A DNA stretch of 64,000 nucleotides from Bacillota bacterium. GTDB taxonomy: Bacteria > Bacillota > UBA994 > UBA5500. The notes beneath the pieces are model-generated. The model ran no database searches and was not told where the DNA came from. It saw only the letters and a list, made by a program, of their open reading frames with translations. Position 1 is the stretch's first letter. Each line of letters begins with the position of its first letter. Positions 9,042 through 53,108 of this stretch are shown here, piece by piece. The stretch covers positions 62,001 to 126,000 of the forward strand of contig JAKOXL010000032.1 in NCBI GenBank assembly GCA_029781045.1. The letters are read 5' to 3'. The position numbers and the translations under genes are program-made.

Positions 9042-10592
9042 ATGAAGCGGTTAGTAGTACTACTCATTGCCCTCAGCCTGTTGCTTACTGGTTGTGGGGG
9101 CGGCGGCGCTAAGACTAGTGACACCTTCATCTACGCTCTCGACGCCGATATAGTAAACCTATTACCAGTTAAACTGACTAATGTGGTATCGACCACTGTA
9201 AGTACGCAAATCCATGAGCCTTTGGTTAAATACGAAGATACCTATGATGAATTTGTGCCGAAACTGGCAACCGAATGGAGTATGGATCCTAGCGGCTTAA
9301 GCTGGACCTTTAAACTCCGCACCGGTGTTACGTGGCACGATGGAGAACCCTTTACTTCCGAAGACGTGAAGTACACCTATGAAACCTTGTTGGATCCGGC
9401 TACTAAGTCGGTGCGTCGGGCCAACTACCAGATCATCAAGAGCATTGAGACCCCCGATGAGCATACGGTAGTTTTCCATTTGAGTGAACCTCACGGTCCT
9501 TTTCTGGATAAGATGAGCCAGGTTCCCATTATGGCTAAGCATCATGTTTCCAAGGTAGGCTTGGACGACTATAATAGTAAGGCTATCGGTACCGGTCCCT
9601 TCATGATGGTTGAGTGGATTCCCGATGACCATGTGACTCTAAAAGCTAACCCCAACTACTGGGGCGGAAAACCGGCTATTGAGAATGTCATCTTCAAGCC
9701 GATTCCTGAGGCTTCCGTTCGGGCCATGGCTTTGCAGAAGGGCGAAGTACACTTTGCTAGCGGCCTGACGGCAGAAGACTTTGAAAAAGTGCTGGATAAG
9801 GGCAATGTGCAGGGGATCGTCGTTGACAGTCTGGCCTTCGCCTATTTTGGCCATAACAATCGCAACCCGCTATTCGCTGACAAGCGAGTTCGTCAGGCTT
9901 TGGCATATGCCATTGATGGCGAGTCCATCGTCAACGATGTGCGTAAAGGAGCTGCCATTGTGTCTGTCGGCCCTATCTCACCTACGAACGCGGTCTGGTT
10001 TAACCCGAATGTGAAGCAGTATCCTTATGATCCGGAAAAGGCCAAGGAGCTATTAGCTCAGGCTGGTTGGCAGGTTGGTAGCGATGGTTTCCTGACTAAA
10101 GATGGAAAGACCTTTAGCTTTAGTGTTATTCTTGCTGCTGGTGATGAAGTAATGCGCAATCAGGCGGTACTCATTCAGAAGTGGCTAAAGGATGTGGGTG
10201 TTGACCTGAAGCTAGAGTTCCTCGACTGGTCGGTAATGAACGATCGTCTGGACAATCGGGAGTACGAGGCGATGATGCTCTCTATGACGCCTAGCCCCGA
10301 TCCAGATCAGTTCAACTATTGGCACAGCACTGCCATTGACAACGGTTTCAATGACTGGTGCTACAGTAATGTCCAGGTCGACAGGCTACTGGAGCAAGGA
10401 AGAAGGGAAACTGATCCGGCCGCCCGCAAAGCCATTTATGACGAAGTGCAAGCCATACTAGCAGAAGATGTGGCCGCCGTTTTCCTCTATCACCCGAAAG
10501 TATTGGGTGGATTGAACAAGAACTTCACTGGTATGACGGAAGGCCCTGCAGGGCAGGCTCCGCTGCTCTACAAGGTAAAACCAGTAAAGTAG
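9042..10592 (+). CDS. dppA: peptide ABC transporter substrate-binding lipoprotein (family 5)
   Basis: A 516-residue extracytoplasmic solute-binding protein of family 5 (DppA/OppA). It has a lipoprotein signal peptide ending in the lipobox LTGC at residues 15-18, so it is tethered to the outer face of the membrane. Family hallmarks are WTFKLRTGVTWHDGEPFTSEDV and the FNYWHSTAIDNGFN region near the C-terminus. It captures di- or oligopeptides and delivers them to the permeases encoded downstream. A strong hairpin separates it from the permease genes, which would make this component the most abundant. The gene symbol is by family; the exact ligand is unknown. Confidence 0.93.
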   Translation: MKRLVVLLIALSLLLTGCGGGGAKTSDTFIYALDADIVNLLPVKLTNVVSTTVSTQIHEPLVKYEDTYDEFVPKLATEWSMDPSGLSWTFKLRTGVTWHDGEPFTSEDVKYTYETLLDPATKSVRRANYQIIKSIETPDEHTVVFHLSEPHGPFLDKMSQVPIMAKHHVSKVGLDDYNSKAIGTGPFMMVEWIPDDHVTLKANPNYWGGKPAIENVIFKPIPEASVRAMALQKGEVHFASGLTAEDFEKVLDKGNVQGIVVDSLAFAYFGHNNRNPLFADKRVRQALAYAIDGESIVNDVRKGAAIVSVGPISPTNAVWFNPNVKQYPYDPEKAKELLAQAGWQVGSDGFLTKDGKTFSFSVILAAGDEVMRNQAVLIQKWLKDVGVDLKLEFLDWSVMNDRLDNREYEAMMLSMTPSPDPDQFNYWHSTAIDNGFNDWCYSNVQVDRLLEQGRRETDPAARKAIYDEVQAILAEDVAAVFLYHPKVLGGLNKNFTGMTEGPAGQAPLLYKVKPVK

Positions 10593-10611
10593 TTTAACTA
10601 ATAAGGTGGCT

Positions 10612-10642
10612 CAAAATGGGCGCCACGGCGGCGCCCGTTTTG
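10612..10642 (+). terminator. intercistronic hairpin between dppA and dppB
   Basis: GGGCGCC (10618-10624) pairs with GGCGCCC (10630-10636), flanked by CAAAA and TTTTG. It looks like a leaky terminator that lets only part of the transcription enter the permease genes. Confidence 0.75.
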
Positions 10643-10667
10643 ATTTGTGTGAAGGAGGGGGAGAGCC

Positions 10668-11588
10668 ATGCTCAAATATGTGGTGCGCCGCATTCTCTTG
10701 GCCATACCTTTGGTTCTAGGAATTAGTCTCTTGGTATTCGGCCTCATGCATTTGGCTCCCGGTGACCCGGTGCGCATGCTGGCTGGTCGGGAGGCGCCGC
10801 AAGAGGTAATCGACTCTATCCGCCGGGAATGGGGCTTTGATAAGCCTTTTCTCGTGCAGTACTTCACTTGGTTGAGCAAGGTACTGCGGGGAGATATGGG
10901 ACGCTCTGTCATCTCCCAGCTACCCGTTTCTTATCTGATCAAATCACGCCTACCCTATACGTTAAAGCTCAACTTCTGGGCAACCCTGCTAGGCCTGGCC
11001 ATTGCCTTCCCTCTGGGGGTGATAGCCGCAGCCAAGCGTCAGACGTGGGTAGACTATGCAGCCAGTGCCTTTGCCCTGGTGGGTATGTCTATGCCTGGGT
11101 TCTGGTTGGCTCTAGTGCTGATCATAGTGTTTGCGGTACAGCTAAACTGGTTCCCTACGAGCGGTACTGGCACCTGGGCCCACTATGTACTACCCACAGC
11201 CACACTGGGCTTTAGCTGGGCTGCCGGATTGATGCGGATGGTGCGTACCAGTCTGTTAGAGGTTTTGAAAGAAGACTATGTGCGTACGGCCCGCGCTAAG
11301 GGCTTACGCGAGAAAGTGGTCTTGGTCAAGCACGCCTTACGTAATGCCCTCATACCTATCGTCACTGTGCTGGGTACTTGGTTGGCATACATGGTAGTGG
11401 GTACGGTGGTAATCGAAACCATCTTTGCTTGGCCGGGGTTGGGACGTCTGCTGACAACGGCCCTGTTGCAACGGGACTTCTTCCTAGTGCAAGCCATAAT
11501 TCTTATGATTTCTGTTGCGGTTGTGGCCGCGAACCTGCTGGTTGACGTGTTGTATGCTGTCATCGACCCGCGGGTACGGTTGAGTTAG
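10668..11588 (+). CDS. dppB: peptide ABC transporter permease (DppB type)
   Basis: A 306-residue inner-membrane permease of the binding-protein-dependent transport family. It has the DppB-type N-terminal helix (VVRRILLAIPLVLGISLLVF), the conserved APGDPVRML motif, about six membrane helices, and the EAA loop (YVRTARAKGLREKVVLVKHA) that contacts the ATPase. ATG 10668 follows AAGGAGGGGG. It pairs with the DppC homologue downstream to form the channel. Confidence 0.95.
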   Translation: MLKYVVRRILLAIPLVLGISLLVFGLMHLAPGDPVRMLAGREAPQEVIDSIRREWGFDKPFLVQYFTWLSKVLRGDMGRSVISQLPVSYLIKSRLPYTLKLNFWATLLGLAIAFPLGVIAAAKRQTWVDYAASAFALVGMSMPGFWLALVLIIVFAVQLNWFPTSGTGTWAHYVLPTATLGFSWAAGLMRMVRTSLLEVLKEDYVRTARAKGLREKVVLVKHALRNALIPIVTVLGTWLAYMVVGTVVIETIFAWPGLGRLLTTALLQRDFFLVQAIILMISVAVVAANLLVDVLYAVIDPRVRLS

Positions 11589-11605
11589 TAAGGGGAGGGA
11601 GAAGG

Positions 11606-12442
11606 ATGCCTTCAGTACTTCAGCGCCTATTTCAGCATAAACTAGCAACAGTCGGTGCTATTGTGCTCTTGCTGTTGGTCTTTGCTGCCCTTTTTGCTCC
11701 CTGGCTGGCGCCCAATAATCCAGAGGATGTGCATCCAGAAGCCAGTCTGCGAGGGCCCAGTCGGCAATTTCCGCTAGGGCAAGATCCTTCGGGGAGATGT
11801 ATCCTTAGCCGTATGCTTTATGGTGCTCGCGCCTCGTTGTCCGTTGGCTTCCTGGCCGGAGTTATCTCCTTAGGGGTAGGTATCATTATGGGCTCTCTCG
11901 CCGGCTATTTTGGTGGCTGGGTCGATCTTTTGATCATGCGTGTTGCTGAAGTTTTCATGACCATACCCCAGTTTCTACTGGTCATTGCGGCAGTAGCCAT
12001 CGTTGGACCCAGCTTTACTAGCGTACTAGTGATAATCGGCCTATCGTCCTGGACTGGCTATGCTCGCGTCTTGCGGGGCGAGATTCTGAGTATTAAGCAG
12101 AAACCCTTTGTAGAGGCGGCTCGCGCTTATGGTTCCAGTAGCTGGCGCATTCTCCTGCGCCATGTGCTGCCCAACTGTCTGTCGCCCTTGATCGTCATGG
12201 TAACTCTGAACGTTGCCAGTGTTATTCTGTTGGAGTCGTCCCTCAGCTTCTTGGGTTTTGGAATACAAGAACCCCAGGCTAGTTGGGGCAGTATTCTCAG
12301 CCAAGGTCGAGCCTACTTTCAATCGGCACCGCATGTGGCTACCTTCCCTGGGATAGCAATTATGCTGGCTGTTCTGGCTTTCAACTTGCTGGGCGATGGT
12401 CTCCGTGATGCACTAGACCCCAAATTGGTGGAAGGAGAGTGA
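11606..12442 (+). CDS. dppC: peptide ABC transporter permease (DppC type)
   Basis: A 278-residue permease, partner of DppB. It has a cytoplasmic N-terminus, a first helix at about residues 12-32, the typical GPSRQFPLGQDPSGRCILSR segment of the DppC/OppC group, and an EAA loop (FVEAARAYGSSSWRILLRHV). A ribosome site (GGGGAGGGAG) precedes ATG 11606. The stop overlaps or abuts the start of the ATPase gene, which supports coupled translation. Confidence 0.95.
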   Translation: MPSVLQRLFQHKLATVGAIVLLLLVFAALFAPWLAPNNPEDVHPEASLRGPSRQFPLGQDPSGRCILSRMLYGARASLSVGFLAGVISLGVGIIMGSLAGYFGGWVDLLIMRVAEVFMTIPQFLLVIAAVAIVGPSFTSVLVIIGLSSWTGYARVLRGEILSIKQKPFVEAARAYGSSSWRILLRHVLPNCLSPLIVMVTLNVASVILLESSLSFLGFGIQEPQASWGSILSQGRAYFQSAPHVATFPGIAIMLAVLAFNLLGDGLRDALDPKLVEGE

Positions 12443-12447
12443 GCCAG

Positions 12448-13428
12448 GTGCAACCGCTACTTGAAGTACAAGACTTAGAAGTGTGTTTTGCACGTCGCCA
12501 GGTTTTGCGCCGGGTATCATTCTCCATTGCTCCAGGTGAGACCCTGGGTATCGTTGGCGAAAGTGGTTCGGGCAAGAGTGTAACGGCCCTCTCGATTATG
12601 GGGCTGCTAAGTCGGCCAGGCCGTGTTACCGGTGGCCGGGTGCTCTGGCATGGGGAAGATCTGTTGCAGCTACCGCCCGACAGTCATCGTCAGCTACGGG
12701 GTAAGGCCATGGCCATGATCTTCCAGGAACCTATGACGTGTCTAAACCCGGTCTATACAGTAGAAAAGCAGATTTCTGAAGTACTGATGCTGCACCGAGG
12801 AATGAGCAAGAAAGAGGCTGCAGAAGCAGCTGCCGATTACTTGGAACAAGTAGGAATTGCAGAGCCGATGGCTCGCTTGCGCAACTACCCCCATGAGCTG
12901 TCAGGCGGGATGCGCCAGCGGGTGATGATTGCCATGGCCTTAGCTGGAGAGCCGGAACTGCTCATCGCCGATGAGCCGACCACAGCCTTGGATGTGACGG
13001 TACAGGCTCAAATCTTAGACTTGCTGAAACAACTGCAGGCCAAGACTGGCATGGCTATGATCCTTATCACCCACGACCTAGGCTTGGTGGCCGAAAATGC
13101 CGAGCGGGGTGTTGTCATGTATGCCGGTGAAGTAGTAGAGGAGGGCAGCGTGGAAGAGCTGTTTACCAATCCTGCCCATCCCTACACGCAAGGGCTTTTG
13201 CGTTCCTTGCCTCGTTGGGGTGAGCAGCAAGATATGCTTTACACCATTCCTGGCACTGTACCCCGTCGTTTGGAGGGTATAGCAGGGTGTGCCTTCGCCG
13301 AGCGCTGTCCTCTAGCTGAGGAACGATGTGCCGAGCCTCAGTCTATGCATCGTTTCAGTGCCACGCAAGCAGCCCGGTGTTGGCGAACGAAAGACAAGGT
13401 AGGTGATGCGGAATGGCAGAGCAGGTAG
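12448..13428 (+). CDS. dppD: peptide ABC transporter ATP-binding protein (DppD type)
   Basis: An ABC ATPase of about 326 residues that energises peptide import. It shows Walker A ([13 protein letters not shown]), signature ([15 protein letters not shown]), Walker B ([12 protein letters not shown]) and the C-terminal oligopeptide-transporter extension with a cysteine cluster ([14 protein letters not shown]), which binds an iron-sulfur cluster in some homologues. GTG 12448 lies 10 bases after AAGGAG; GTG 12439 is too close to it. Confidence 0.94.
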
Positions 13429-14384
13429 CACTTACAGTTAAAGACCTGGAAAAGGTTTTTCCTCTGCGGCGGGGACTCTTCGCTCGCCCCCAAGGTGGAG
13501 TACGGGCCGTAGATAAGGTCAGTTTTCAGTTAAAGAGTGGTGAGACGCTGGCTCTGGTAGGAGAGAGTGGCTGTGGCAAGACGACTGTCGCCCGCATATT
13601 GGCCGGATTAGAGCAGCCTACTGGGGGAACAGTAGTACTCAGTGGTAAGGAACTGGATTTTGCCAGCAAAGAGACCCCCCATATCCTGCGGCAGACGAAC
13701 CAGATGGTATTTCAAGATCCGTATGCTACCCTTAATCCACGCATGACGGTGGGTCAAAGCGTGGAGGAGCCGTTGATCGTGCGCCGCTATGCAGGTGATC
13801 GCAAGCAGCGGGTAAGGGAGCTGTTTGCGGCTGTAAGTCTCGGCGAAGAGATGATTGACCGCTACCCCCATCAGTTTAGTGGGGGGCAGCGACAGCGCAT
13901 TGGCATTGCCCGAGCTCTGGCTTCTGACCCGAAAATACTGCTGTGCGATGAGCCCACTTCCGCCCTCGACGTGTCGGTGCAAGGGCAAGTATTGAACCTT
14001 CTGAAAGACCTGCAACAGGAGCGTGGTATTTCCTATCTATTCATTTCCCACAACTTGTCGGTGGTTTGGCATATTAGCCAACAGGTGGCCGTAATGTATC
14101 TGGGCAAGATTGTGGAGATTGGCAGTCGGGAGGCAGTTTTCTTAGAGACAGCCCACCCCTATACTAAAGCCCTTTTGGCGGCCAGCCCCAAGGTGGCACC
14201 AGGGCAAAGCAGAGAACGCATAGTGCTATCGGGTGAGGTGCCCAGTCCCTTAAACCCGCCTAGTGGTTGTCGTTTTCACACCCGCTGCCCTTTTGCTAAG
14301 GATATCTGCAGAGAAGCGGAGCCATCCTTACAAGACTTGGGCGCCGGTCATCACGTTGCCTGCCATTTTGCTGGTAAGATGTAA
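13413..14384 (+). CDS. dppF: peptide ABC transporter ATP-binding protein (DppF type)
   Basis: The second ATPase of the importer, 323 residues, overlapping the end of dppD by 16 bases. Walker A (GESGCGKTTVAR), signature (FSGGQRQRIGIARAL) and Walker B (ILLCDEPTSALD) are intact, and the C-terminal domain has a cysteine cluster (CRFHTRCPFAKDIC) like that of DppD. Together with DppD it forms the ATPase heterodimer below the DppBC channel. The D-aminopeptidase gene follows after a hairpin. Confidence 0.95.
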   Translation: MAEQVALTVKDLEKVFPLRRGLFARPQGGVRAVDKVSFQLKSGETLALVGESGCGKTTVARILAGLEQPTGGTVVLSGKELDFASKETPHILRQTNQMVFQDPYATLNPRMTVGQSVEEPLIVRRYAGDRKQRVRELFAAVSLGEEMIDRYPHQFSGGQRQRIGIARALASDPKILLCDEPTSALDVSVQGQVLNLLKDLQQERGISYLFISHNLSVVWHISQQVAVMYLGKIVEIGSREAVFLETAHPYTKALLAASPKVAPGQSRERIVLSGEVPSPLNPPSGCRFHTRCPFAKDICREAEPSLQDLGAGHHVACHFAGKM

Positions 14385-14490
14385 GCGGGTTTATTTCCCG
14401 GGCATTGACAGGAAAATTGCATTTTTGCCCTCTATCTGCGCTTGCTAAGCAGAATTATGACGCATTATGACAAGAGAAGGACTTTTTAGG

Positions 14491-14536
14491 AGCGGGCCCT
14501 TGCTTCCCACGCCAGTGCAGGAAGGGGCCCGCTTTT
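14491..14536 (+). terminator. terminator between dppF and the D-aminopeptidase gene
   Basis: AGCGGGCCC (14491-14499) pairs with GGGCCCGCT (14525-14533) and is followed by TTTT. It may end the transporter transcript or reduce readthrough into the peptidase gene. Confidence 0.75.
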
Positions 14537-14576
14537 GTCGAAGAGTTTTATTAACAATAGCTTTGGAGGTGTTTAT

Positions 14577-15407
14577 ATGAAGGTCTATATTTCCGTTGAC
14601 ATGGAAGGCGGCACGGGCGTGGCTAGCGCCAAGCATATGAGTGATGCTGGCTATGCCCGCATGTGCAAGCTGTTGACCCAAGATGTCAATGCGGCCATTG
14701 CTGGAGCTTTCGAGGCTGGTGCTACAGAAGTTCTGGTCAATGATGCCCATGGCAGCATGACTAACATTCTAATCGAGGAGTTGGATGAGCGGGCCACCCT
14801 GATCAGCGGCAGCAACAAACCGCTGTTACAGATGGAAGGTATCGATGAGACCTTTGACGCCGTGTTTTTCATTGGTTACCACGCCCATGAGGGTAACGAG
14901 GACGCCGTAATGAACCACACCATCTATGGTACCGTCATTACCGAAATCAAGCGTAATGGAGTAGTGGTGGGAGAAACCGGAATCAACGCGGGAATTGCCG
15001 GTGCTTATGGTGTTCCTGTGGTCTTAGTGGTGGGAGACGATGTGGTCTGCCGCGAAGCCAAGAGCATTCTGGGGGAAGAGGTGGAAACGGTGACCGTGAA
15101 GCAAGCAATAGACCGTTACGCCGCCAAGCTGTTGCCACCCAAGCGTAGCTATGATCTGATCAAGGCAGCTGCGAAACGGTCCTTAGAGCGTCTCTCTGAG
15201 ATCAAGCCCCACCGCGTAGCGGGACCCGTTGAGTTTGAAATAACTACCAAACTCACTAGCATGGCCCACATGTGCACCCTGTTCCCCAGCGTGGAGCGTC
15301 GTGGGCCCAAAGTGATTGCTGTGAAAGACGATTGCTACTTAGCAGCTTACAAGCAACTACTGGGGTGCCTGATTATCAGCGGAGCCACTGCCCGCGGTTG
15401 GCTCTAG
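14577..15407 (+). CDS. M55 family D-aminopeptidase (DppA-peptidase type)
   Basis: A 276-residue zinc aminopeptidase of family M55, which removes N-terminal D-amino acids from short peptides such as those released from the cell wall. Metal-binding motifs are visible: DMEGGTG near residue 8, NDAHG near residue 60 and GYHAHEGN near residue 103. ATG 14577 follows GGAGGTG; upstream codons lack a ribosome site. In B. subtilis the related DppA peptidase is encoded with a dipeptide transporter, and the same pairing is seen here, suggesting use of D-amino-acid peptides. Its last 51 bases overlap the end of the convergent GGDEF/HD-GYP gene. Confidence 0.93.
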   Translation: MKVYISVDMEGGTGVASAKHMSDAGYARMCKLLTQDVNAAIAGAFEAGATEVLVNDAHGSMTNILIEELDERATLISGSNKPLLQMEGIDETFDAVFFIGYHAHEGNEDAVMNHTIYGTVITEIKRNGVVVGETGINAGIAGAYGVPVVLVVGDDVVCREAKSILGEEVETVTVKQAIDRYAAKLLPPKRSYDLIKAAAKRSLERLSEIKPHRVAGPVEFEITTKLTSMAHMCTLFPSVERRGPKVIAVKDDCYLAAYKQLLGCLIISGATARGWL

Positions 15408-49185: not shown

Positions 49186-50373
49186 TTGAACGTACGCCAA
49201 ATCGCGCCCAACATCTATTGGGTTGGAGTCATCGATTGGGACACCCGCTACTTCCATGGCCACTCACTTAGTACCCATCGCGGAACCACTTACAACGCCT
49301 ATCTCATCTTAGATGAGAAGGTTGCCCTGGTTGATACGGTTTATACTCCGGTGGCTGACAAGCTGTTAGAGAACATCCGACAAATAGTGGATCCAGCTCA
49401 GATTGATTATATTATCTGCAATCACAGTGAGGTCGACCACTCTGGTGCCATCCCCCATGTCTTAGCTGCAGCGCCCAAAGCACAGATCTACTGCACTCAG
49501 AAGGGGGCCGAATTCTTGGAGGCCCAGTTCCACGGCGGCTGGGACTATCATGTGGTTAAGACTTTCGATGAACTAAGCTTGGGCAAACGTACTCTAACCT
49601 TCTTGGAAGCACCTATGCTGCACTGGCCCGACAGCATGTTCACTTACATCAAAGAAGACGCGATCCTCATGCCCAACGATGCTTTTGGCCAGCACTATGC
49701 CAGCTCTGGTCGTTTCGACGACGAAGTAGATGTAGATGAGATGATGGAAGAGGCCAGCAAATACTATGCCAATATCCTTACCCCCTTCTCATCTCTAGTG
49801 GCTAAGAAGCTAAAGGAAGTGGCTGATCTAGGCTTACCAATCAAGATGATTTGTCCCAGTCACGGAGTCATGTTCCGGCAGAATCCGGGACTCATTCTAG
49901 AAGCCTATCAGCGTTGGTCTACTGCTCCGGCAGAAGGCGGTGTGGTCATTGTCTACGATACCATGTGGGGCAGTACTAAGATGATGGCTGAGGCTATCGC
50001 CAGCGGAGTGGATGCAGCTGGCGTCCCCTACAAGATTTTCCATCTACCGGTGAGCGATCGCAATGATGTGATTGAGGAGATCATGCGTGCAGGGGCCGTA
50101 GCCATCGGCTCAGCCACAATCAACCGCGGTGTTTTGCCTGCCATTGCTCCTTTGTTGGATGAGCTAGTAGGTTTGCGCGTGGCTGGCAAGAAGGCCCTCG
50201 CCTTTGGTTCCGACGGTTGGGGTGGGGGGGCTGTTAAGGTCATCAATGAATACCTGGACAAAGCGGGTATGCAGCGCATTTCCGAAGGCGTGGCCATGCG
50301 CTGGCGCCCGGATGAGGCGGCTCGCAAAGCTCTGCAGGAGATTGGTCGTCAGCTGGCGGAGAGTATTGAATAG
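49186..50373 (+). CDS. fprA: flavo-diiron protein (FprA type)
   Basis: A 395-residue soluble flavoprotein: residues 1-245 form a beta-lactamase-fold domain with a diiron site (NHSEVDHSG, MLHWPDSM, PNDAFGQH, CPSHGVMF), and residues about 250-395 a flavodoxin domain (VIVYDTMWGSTKMMAEAIA). It reduces oxygen or NO to water or N2O, a standard anaerobe defence. TTG 49186 is preceded by AAGGAGGGG. No rubredoxin gene is adjacent, so the electron donor is elsewhere. Confidence 0.96.
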   Translation: MNVRQIAPNIYWVGVIDWDTRYFHGHSLSTHRGTTYNAYLILDEKVALVDTVYTPVADKLLENIRQIVDPAQIDYIICNHSEVDHSGAIPHVLAAAPKAQIYCTQKGAEFLEAQFHGGWDYHVVKTFDELSLGKRTLTFLEAPMLHWPDSMFTYIKEDAILMPNDAFGQHYASSGRFDDEVDVDEMMEEASKYYANILTPFSSLVAKKLKEVADLGLPIKMICPSHGVMFRQNPGLILEAYQRWSTAPAEGGVVIVYDTMWGSTKMMAEAIASGVDAAGVPYKIFHLPVSDRNDVIEEIMRAGAVAIGSATINRGVLPAIAPLLDELVGLRVAGKKALAFGSDGWGGGAVKVINEYLDKAGMQRISEGVAMRWRPDEAARKALQEIGRQLAESIE

Positions 50374-50468: not shown

Positions 50469-52991
50469 CTAAGTCCTATCAAGCCACACATTTTCCAGTC
50501 GGATTATCCCTAGTGGGTGGAGCGCGAAGCCCTTCACGTGGGGTTGAGTGATTATCAACTGGTCGTCATGGCAAAGGAAGACCCACGGTGCCAGTTCGGC
50601 GATCAAGCGGTTAAGTTTGGCATAGTGTCTTCTACGCTGCTCTGGGTCACGAATGGCTTGCCCCTGTTCCAGGAGACGATCCACTTCAGGATGACTAAAG
50701 AAGGTGCGATTACCCATGTCGCCGTGATTACTGCTATTGAATAATGGCTGGAGGAAGTTGTCCGGGTCCCCTGTGTCTCCAATCCAAGTCAACATGTGCA
50801 TGTCACAACGGCGCATGGCATCAGTAGTAACCATTTCGGCCCAAGGTAACTCTCTTACTTCCAAGCGAATCCCAATTTCTCCTAGCCACTGTTTGAACAT
50901 ATTGGCCTGTCGCTGCTGGGCCTGATTGCCTTGCCGGATATGCAAGACCAGTGGGTCGGGTAGTCCATTGGGATAGCCGGCTTCTCGCAGTTTGGCCGCA
51001 GCAGCCCTTAGGTCAAAGGGGTAAGGTGCCTGACTTTCATCATAGCCTAGGCAGCCAGGAGGCAAAGGTCCAGCAGCGATACGGGCGTTGCCATTGTAGA
51101 TTTCGTCCACGATCATCTGCTTGTTGATTGCCAAGTTGATGGCCTGACGCACTAGGGGATTGCTTAGCGGCCCACCTTTGCCGCAATTAAGACCGATATG
51201 GGCTGTTCGCAACACGCTGCCCCTCTGTATGCGTTTGCTGTATTCTGGATGGTTTTGGATTGCGGTAATGTTGCGAGCTGACAACTGCAGTAGGTCGATG
51301 GTTTGGTTATCCAACGCCTCCACGTCAGTCATGTTATCGGGGAGTTGCATTAAGACCTGGATTTCATCGATGAAGGGGCGACCACCGTAGAAGTCGGTAA
51401 AGGCTTTGAGGACAGCCTTCTCGCCCGGCTCATAGGAAGCAAAGGTAAAGGGTCCGGCTCCGATGGGGCTAGTCAAATGTCTGCCACTTTCCACAACTTC
51501 TTGCGGCATTATGCTAGTACCCGTATAAGCCAAGTTGGCCAAGAAAGGATGGTAGGGCTTTTCTAATGTTATTTGTACAGTATAGTCTCCTTTAATAACG
51601 ATACCCTTTAGGTCACGGGTCCGTCCGGCCATCACATCTTTGGCTCCTTCAATCATCTCCACCAGCCAAGTGTTGGGAGAGCCAGTCTCGGGCCACAAAA
51701 TGCGTTCCAGACTGTATTTTACGTCACGCGCCTTTACTTCTCGCCCGTGATGGAATTTAGCACCCCGCCGTAACTGAAAGGTCCAAGTGCGACCATCGGC
51801 GGATAGATCCCAGGCCTGAGCCAGTCCGGGCACCACGCCTGTATCGGGACCAAAACGGGTTAGGCCCACAAAGACTTCGCTGAGCAAATAGGTGGTGGAC
51901 ATATCATTGCTCAGCTGGGGATCGAGCGTGATGGGGTCGCTACCAACACACCAGCAGAAACGTTGTGGCGGTCGAGAGGACTCTTTTGGTCGCGGTAAAC
52001 TAGCACAAATGGCCCCTAGTTGTTCCGTAAGCATAGCCAGTTGAGTGAGAGCGGCCTGCTGCTGGGTGGCATCCATGATGGCTTTATCAATGGAATAACT
52101 CACCCGTGCGCTTAGGTCAGCCAGAGAGTTGGAAACCAATACAATCTGTTGGCTGCCTTGCGCCTGCTCTCCGGCCGCATCCGATATTTGTGCCACCATT
52201 TCACTAACTTGCCCAGCAGCTTCTACGATTTCTTTTAATGCTTGTCCAGCCTGTTCTACCACGGCGTTGCCAGCGGCAACGGCCTGAAGGCTCTCCTCCA
52301 TGTGAGCAGTCACTTGGTCAATCTCCCGAGTTATCTCGTCAACTACGGCCGCTATTTGTCGCGCTTGGGCTGCCGATTGCTCCGAAAGCTTGCGCACTTC
52401 ATCGGCCACCACCGCGAATCCGCGGCCTGCTTCGCCGGCTCTGGCTGCCTCAATGGCAGCGTTCAAAGATAGTAAATTGGTCTGACTGGCGATTTCTTGA
52501 ATGATGTCTACGATGCGGTTAATGGCCGATGCTCGTTGCCCCAGCTTTACAACTGTGTCACCAGTCTTTTGTACAGTGACGGCGATGCGCGCCATTTGAT
52601 TATGGGCTTCTTCCACTGCATGGCGACCTTGTTCCGCCAAGGCATCGGCCTGTTGCGCTGCACTGGCCGATTCTTCTGCTGATGCTGCCACTTCCTGGGT
52701 GGTGGCTGACAGCATTTCCACAGTTGCTAGGGTCTGATCCAGTCCGGCCAGGTGCTGCATTTGCCCCTCCTGGATTTCTCTTAAGCCCGTCTCAAGTTGC
52801 CTGATGGCGCCCTGTAATTCCTGAACCGCATGCTTGAGCCGATTGAAAGCCACGTCATGCTGGAAAATGACAACGGCTTGAGTGATCTCCTCTTGCGATA
52901 TCGGCTTTTCCCCGGGGGTAGTAACAGTAACTGTAGACTGCGTGTCCGATTCCTCTTGATTGCTGCGCAGACGATTCCAGATACTTCTCAT
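50469..52991 (-). CDS. soluble chemoreceptor-like signalling domain fused to a family 5 peptide-binding domain
   Basis: An 840-residue protein that joins two normally separate modules. Residues about 50-330 are a coiled-coil MCP signalling domain with the highly conserved tip ([20 protein letters not shown] then [18 protein letters not shown]). After a short linker, residues about 345-840 form a complete SBP family 5 (DppA/OppA) domain ([18 protein letters not shown]). There is no signal peptide, lipobox or transmembrane segment, so both halves should be cytoplasmic. Precedent for a cytoplasmic SBP sensor exists in SgrR. The likely idea is a soluble receptor that senses a peptide or related ligand and signals to CheA. 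No other chemotaxis genes are in the window. Start ATG 52991 has GAGGGTG upstream. Confidence 0.92.
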
Positions 52992-53108
52992 TACTTCACC
53001 CTCTGTTCTCTTAATTTTGCCGTAAACAGCCAGTCGCGGCTGTCTTCCTGTCTTGTCTTACCAAAATTCGACGATAAGAGATGACAATCCTGCTTTATTT
53101 TTCACAAA

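Follow-up and report, generated by a model that had tools for sequence, protein, structure and literature searches.

Tap, which acts together with DppA, is a case of a family 5 solute-binding protein (SBP) coupled to a chemoreceptor. SBP-assisted chemoreception is known as a general mechanism (PMC9602780). Cytosolic chemoreceptors whose sensor domain is C-terminal form a recognized, poorly characterized group, in which at least 17 types of sensor have been counted (PMC7390727). A full-length structure exists for one such receptor, Helicobacter pylori TlpD, which combines an MCP domain with a C-terminal CZB domain (PMC12871147), and cytoplasmic receptors have been found to form double-layered arrays (PMC3964821). 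SgrR and DsvR are cytoplasmic transcription factors in which SBP_bac_5 serves as the sensor, and SgrR reportedly binds glutamate (PMC13060122).

Here, we describe a gene that joins an MCP signalling domain to a family 5 SBP domain, found in a window of 64,000 nucleotides (the whole stretch of DNA that was analysed). Its product is probably a cytoplasmic chemoreceptor of the C-terminal-sensor kind, in which the family 5 domain reads an internal di- or oligopeptide-like ligand and sets the activity of CheA.

The fusion gene and its surroundings

A first-pass annotation of this DNA had reported a single 840-residue frame at 50469–52991 without stating its strand; the frame is intact at exactly these positions and lies on the minus strand (Table 1). 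Pfam confirmed the order of domains proposed there, both far above cut-off, with MCPsignal at residues 110–290 (E = 1.5e-44; 152.3 bits, cut-off 34.6) followed by SBP_bac_5 at residues 386–756 (E = 1.5e-86; 291 bits), and the conserved MCP tip is present. Both domains were found in 17 of 17 fusions scanned, and Pfam detected no other domain above cut-off in the fusions, including the N-terminal DNA-binding domain that marks SgrR-type proteins. The maximum Kyte–Doolittle mean over any 19 residues of the 840-residue fusion is 1.16, an in-frame stop lies 22 codons 5′ of the ATG, and the open stretch between stop and start contains no hydrophobic run. The claim that the protein has neither a signal peptide nor a membrane segment thus held up in the hydropathy scan and in the region upstream of the ATG. 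Export of the whole protein was considered and ruled out, as it carries no export signal.

Table 1. Positions of the fusion gene, of the parts of its product, and of the related tandem pairs in genus g6. Positions refer to the window unless a locus is named.
Feature	Position	Strand	Basis or remark
MCP signalling and family 5 solute-binding fusion gene	50469..52991	-	840 aa, ATG start, stands alone
N-terminal tail, residues 1–31	52899..52991	-	disordered in model, variable sequence
Descending helix of receptor hairpin, residues 32–183 (152 residues)	52443..52898	-	model; register matches 2CH7
Two overlapping consensus methylation sites, residues 95–104 and 102–111	52659..52709	-	sequence consensus
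Kinase-contact tip, residues 165–210	52362..52499	-	alignment
Ascending helix, residues 189–330 (142 residues)	52002..52427	-	model
Linker from coiled coil to sensor domain, residues 331–342	51966..52001	-	model
Solute-binding domain, residues 343–840, family 5, DppA/GbpA-like	50472..51965	-	Pfam, model, Foldseek; no signal peptide or lipobox
R686, aligned to DppA R355	50934..50936	-	alignment
D739, aligned to DppA D408	50775..50777	-	alignment
Tandem fusion pairs of genus g6	L074 6571-11393; L073 2429-7278; L075 16-4838; L076 279-5101		

An artefactual joining of separate MCP and SBP genes during assembly or gene prediction might be suspected, as the genome is a draft of 57 contigs and the tandem copies in one related genome, G002, are broken by gaps. 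Against this suspicion, continuous fusion frames occur in 13 separate genomes, with up to three copies in each, and two GenBank records hold close orthologues. These orthologues, from the two other genomes of the same genus, are 78% and 76% identical to the window copy and run through in the same continuous frame, which excludes an interruption of the frame between MCP and SBP by a stop or frameshift, the outcome that the first-pass annotation had named as fatal to a fusion. The exception to continuity is a G002 paralogue, which assembly gaps interrupt. We therefore ruled out an artefact, to which we assign next to no probability.

The fusion gene stands alone because it is convergent with the flavodiiron protein gene on one side (49186–50373) and divergent from the GntR–ABC cluster on the other (from 53483). 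No chemotaxis or transporter gene adjoins the 50469–52991 fusion, and no Rfam family matched near it. A motif search found no good sigma-D site upstream of eleven fusion genes, and co-regulation of the fusions with flagella was therefore not seen. A clear sigma-D-type promoter (TAAA-N15-GCCGATA), which can serve as the genome's reference motif, precedes an apparent flgM gene at about 15198 of L078, minus strand. A Spo0A-box-like element, TTTTGTCGAA, precedes both orthologues (L009 and L086) by ~110–130 bases, possibly by chance; the window copy of this element, at 53067–53075 on the minus strand, is imperfect (ATCGTCGAA). The genome contains a Spo0A gene.

Spread, descent and selection

The first-pass annotation had proposed examining the phylogenetic spread of the fusion, and this analysis revealed two things absent from that annotation, namely a conserved family and three copies in the source genome. 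The two further copies are in tandem on contig C54 and are 36–37% identical to the copy at 50469–52991; the genus's two other genomes likewise have a tandem pair, in part-broken assemblies, in addition to the orthologues described above. At least one fusion is present in 11 of the 15 genomes of the class. Within family f2, genera g3 and g5 have single fusions and genus g6 has tandem pairs. Of 399 genomes drawn from across the phylum and searched with a profile, only 13 carried a fusion, and outside the class these belonged to one genus of another class, g117 (family f54), represented by two genomes. The fusion is conserved in a limited set of related, uncultured Firmicutes. Among plasmid records, none covered 80% of the query. 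The survey spanned one phylum, together with plasmids and one pattern-limited scan.

We placed the two halves in separate trees. The SBP halves of the fusions, counting the SBP piece of the assembly-split G002 fusion, lie together on the same side of a branch that has 97% support in a tree that includes 29 free-standing family 5 binding proteins, and the MCP halves do so with support of 100/98 in a tree that includes 19 other MCPs, from which the spurious match L082_11006 was left out. Both trees concur on branch A (the window gene), branch B (the tandem pair of its genus), and branches C, D and E together. One fusion event followed by duplication, with loss or a single transfer to genus g117, would fit these trees. 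Where dS was measurable, dN/dS was 0.04–0.13 in both halves of branches A, C and D, and this strong purifying selection in both halves indicates that both are in use.

A neighbourhood in genome G038 (family f27; L085, 3980–8773) has an unfused MCP gene directly upstream of genes that encode a secreted binding protein of family 5 along with two permeases, and is of the kind from which an MCP–SBP fusion could arise. By eye, the g6 tandem pair has a U32-type peptidase gene just upstream in three genomes; in the fourth, the contig ends there.

The receptor half and its signalling context

Aligned to PDB 2CH7, a long receptor fragment of class 44H from Thermotoga maritima, the MCP half shows net-zero gaps over 222 residues. 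At the tip of the window copy, the residues equivalent to Tsr L380, N381, E385, R388, E391, R394 and F396 are all intact, numbered by alignment to Tsr. A structure model built from the alignment of 17 fusions had a mean pLDDT of 76.9 and a pTM of 0.61, at which the relative placement of the two halves is unreliable; the linker, for which the first-pass annotation had proposed a structure prediction, spans ~12 residues between coiled coil and sensor domain in this model.

The cheA and cheW genes, suggested at the same time as a search of the remaining genome, are both encoded elsewhere, in one cheB-cheA-cheW-cheC-cheD cluster that also contains a gene for a flagellar-type sigma factor, and the source genome encodes CheR and flagellin as well. 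Fusions make up three of the seven MCPs of this genome. In the genomes of genus g5, the fusion is one of only two MCPs, and its ligand would therefore define half of their sensing range. With an MCPsignal domain, the hairpin register, the tip and methylation sites, in a genome that has CheR and CheB, the fusion has the features of a chemoreceptor; with no transmembrane or export signal and a sensor domain placed after the signalling domain, it has those of the C-terminal-sensor cytosolic kind.

We propose that two copies of the fusion would dimerize through the long antiparallel coiled coil and that the hairpin tip would bind CheA and CheW, as the tips of other receptors do. The ascending helix would lead by way of the short linker to a cytoplasmic family 5 Venus flytrap domain at the far end. 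Closure of the flytrap on a cytoplasmic di- or oligopeptide-like ligand would shift the coiled coil, and this shift would change CheA activity and with it the bias of the flagellar motor, while CheR, CheB and CheD would adapt the signal at the methylation sites. The first-pass annotation had likewise envisaged a soluble receptor that reads an intracellular peptide or related ligand and drives CheA signalling. The soluble, full-length, receptor-type fusion, the complete chemotaxis system of the genome and the retained DppA-type Arg and Asp (R686 and D739) speak for that proposal; the cytoplasmic location, the class of ligand, the coupling to CheA and the direction of the response are what we infer.

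The tandem pair of genus g6 departs from this pattern. One member, D1, has Q, H and Q at the positions of Tsr E385, R388 and E391, and in the other, D2, a single residue is deleted close to the E391 equivalent, yet both are under purifying selection, and the g6 genomes retain CheA and CheW. The g6 branch at least may therefore not signal in the usual way. Changed tips under purifying selection would also be expected if the fusions were coiled-coil scaffolds or decoys that do not control CheA, with the SBP half in some other regulatory or storage role. We consider such a non-working receptor quite improbable, as the core tip residues are intact in the window copy and in branches B, C and E, the tip region is 91–96% identical among the branch A orthologues, which is above the average for the protein, and two consensus methylation sites are present.

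The N terminus raises another alternative to a freely soluble receptor. Most fusions begin with a short motif of Trp or Phe and Arg or Lys (MRSIWNRLR in the window copy, 52965–52991, minus strand), which resembles amphipathic anchors such as that of MreB, and which is kept despite an otherwise variable tail (30–36% identity). This start may be a membrane-tethering peptide, in which case the receptor would be held at the inner face of the membrane, in an ordinary polar array, with its sensor under the membrane near peptide importers. The length of the hairpin around the tip bears on this reading. The transmembrane receptors of the source genome, L007 and L078, have no deletion there relative to the fusions, so lengths could match and mixed arrays are possible. 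In family f2, by contrast, the transmembrane receptors have seven residues fewer per arm, which makes mixed arrays less likely there and points to separate clusters. As the motif is also short and absent from D1, we regard a membrane-associated receptor as rather unlikely and favour a freely soluble one.

The sensor half and its candidate ligands

The best Foldseek matches, at TM-scores to the target of ~0.8, are family 5 binding proteins, including 8upi, GbpA with glutathione (3m8u), DppA with Gly-Leu (1dpp) and OppA, among others; the TM-score to the target is 0.80–0.83 for ligand-bound DppA and GbpA. In mature-protein numbering, DppA R355 binds the peptide carboxylate and D408 the amino group of the peptide, and the window copy keeps both. 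PDB 8z1z, described as DppA R383D+D436R in precursor numbering, mutates exactly this pair. Our best guess is a di- or short-peptide-like ligand for the window copy. Family 5 proteins commonly carry such an Asp, however, which makes it weak evidence for a peptide ligand. Branch B keeps the Arg and has Gly in place of the Asp. In branches C and D, the Asp is conserved and so, probably, is the Arg, which a short gap offsets in the wide SBP alignment and which is in register when the fusions alone are aligned. Branch E, from genus g117, keeps the Asp and has lost the Arg. The paralogous tandem pairs presumably read other ligands, given the missing Asp in pair B.

These losses are also compatible with a cytoplasmic chemoreceptor whose sensor half reads a non-peptide small metabolite, such as an amino acid, opine, metal chelate or sugar-like compound, as SgrR-type domains may. 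The ligands of family 5 span nickel, opines, amino acids and glutathione, and the ligand class stays wide because SgrR, the cytoplasmic precedent in this family, is the one reported to bind glutamate (PMC13060122). Given that the window copy retains both ligand-gripping residues of DppA and that peptides or small peptide-like molecules are the ligands of several of the closest relatives with solved structures, we hold a non-peptide ligand to be doubtful but quite possible, and continue to prefer a peptide-like one.

A connection to the Dpp uptake system, which the first-pass annotation had offered as a possibility, did not gain support beyond coexistence in one genome. A dpp/opp-type import operon (9042–15407, plus strand), encoding a lipoprotein binding protein, two permeases and two ATPases, is 35 kb from the fusion, and its binding protein is not obviously the fusion's partner because it lacks the DppA-type Asp. 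In the neighbourhoods read, no fusion gene adjoins a peptide permease or a transporter of this type. An M55 D-aminopeptidase gene follows the operon. With the fold and profile of family 5, and with neither an export signal nor an importer beside it in the neighbourhoods read, the fusion would resemble a binding protein in its action, yet is not a component of an importer.

A broader reading is that the fusions represent a lineage-specific strategy in which an internalized family 5 flytrap measures imported or recycled cytoplasmic peptides, and in which the g6 pair, with its canonical tip residues lost, is a different and non-standard signalling device. We regard this combined reading as unlikely. 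If the fusion does act as a cytoplasmic peptide-reading chemoreceptor, chemotaxis would track the uptake or recycled content of the cell and not the medium. The protein also offers a compact, soluble and full-length system for structural work on long-range signalling, in which closure of a flytrap would bear directly on the coiled coil of a receptor.

The first-pass annotation had presented the architecture as without a well-characterized precedent. This view needs to be narrowed, as receptors with a C-terminal sensor are an established, if little-studied, kind (PMC7390727). A literature search, largely limited to open-access main texts, returned no paper describing an MCP–family 5 SBP fusion. 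Within the papers searchable, a family 5 binding domain as the C-terminal sensor of a cytosolic chemoreceptor is thus a new version of a recognized receptor group.

Like TlpD, the fusion has no membrane segment, has an MCP hairpin and carries its ligand-binding domain after the signalling domain. In contrast to TlpD, its sensor is a two-lobed SBP_bac_5 domain of ~500 residues and not a small CZB helical bundle, and its hairpin is full length, whereas that of TlpD is about half the length of the Tsr hairpin; the lack of an N-terminal PAS domain also counts as a difference from TlpD-type receptors. The SBP half shares its fold and its ligand-gripping Arg and Asp with DppA, OppA and GbpA/HbpA but has no signal peptide, lipobox or adjacent transporter, and is covalently part of a receptor. 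SgrR and DsvR are likewise cytoplasmic proteins with an SBP_bac_5 sensor, but their output is a DNA-binding domain, whereas that of the fusion is an MCP hairpin. In the Tap/DppA system, a separate periplasmic SBP docks on the external domain of the receptor, and importer-type binding proteins are known to brief chemoreceptors from outside the membrane; in the fusion, the binding protein would be on the cytoplasmic side, inside the cell, and is joined to the receptor itself.
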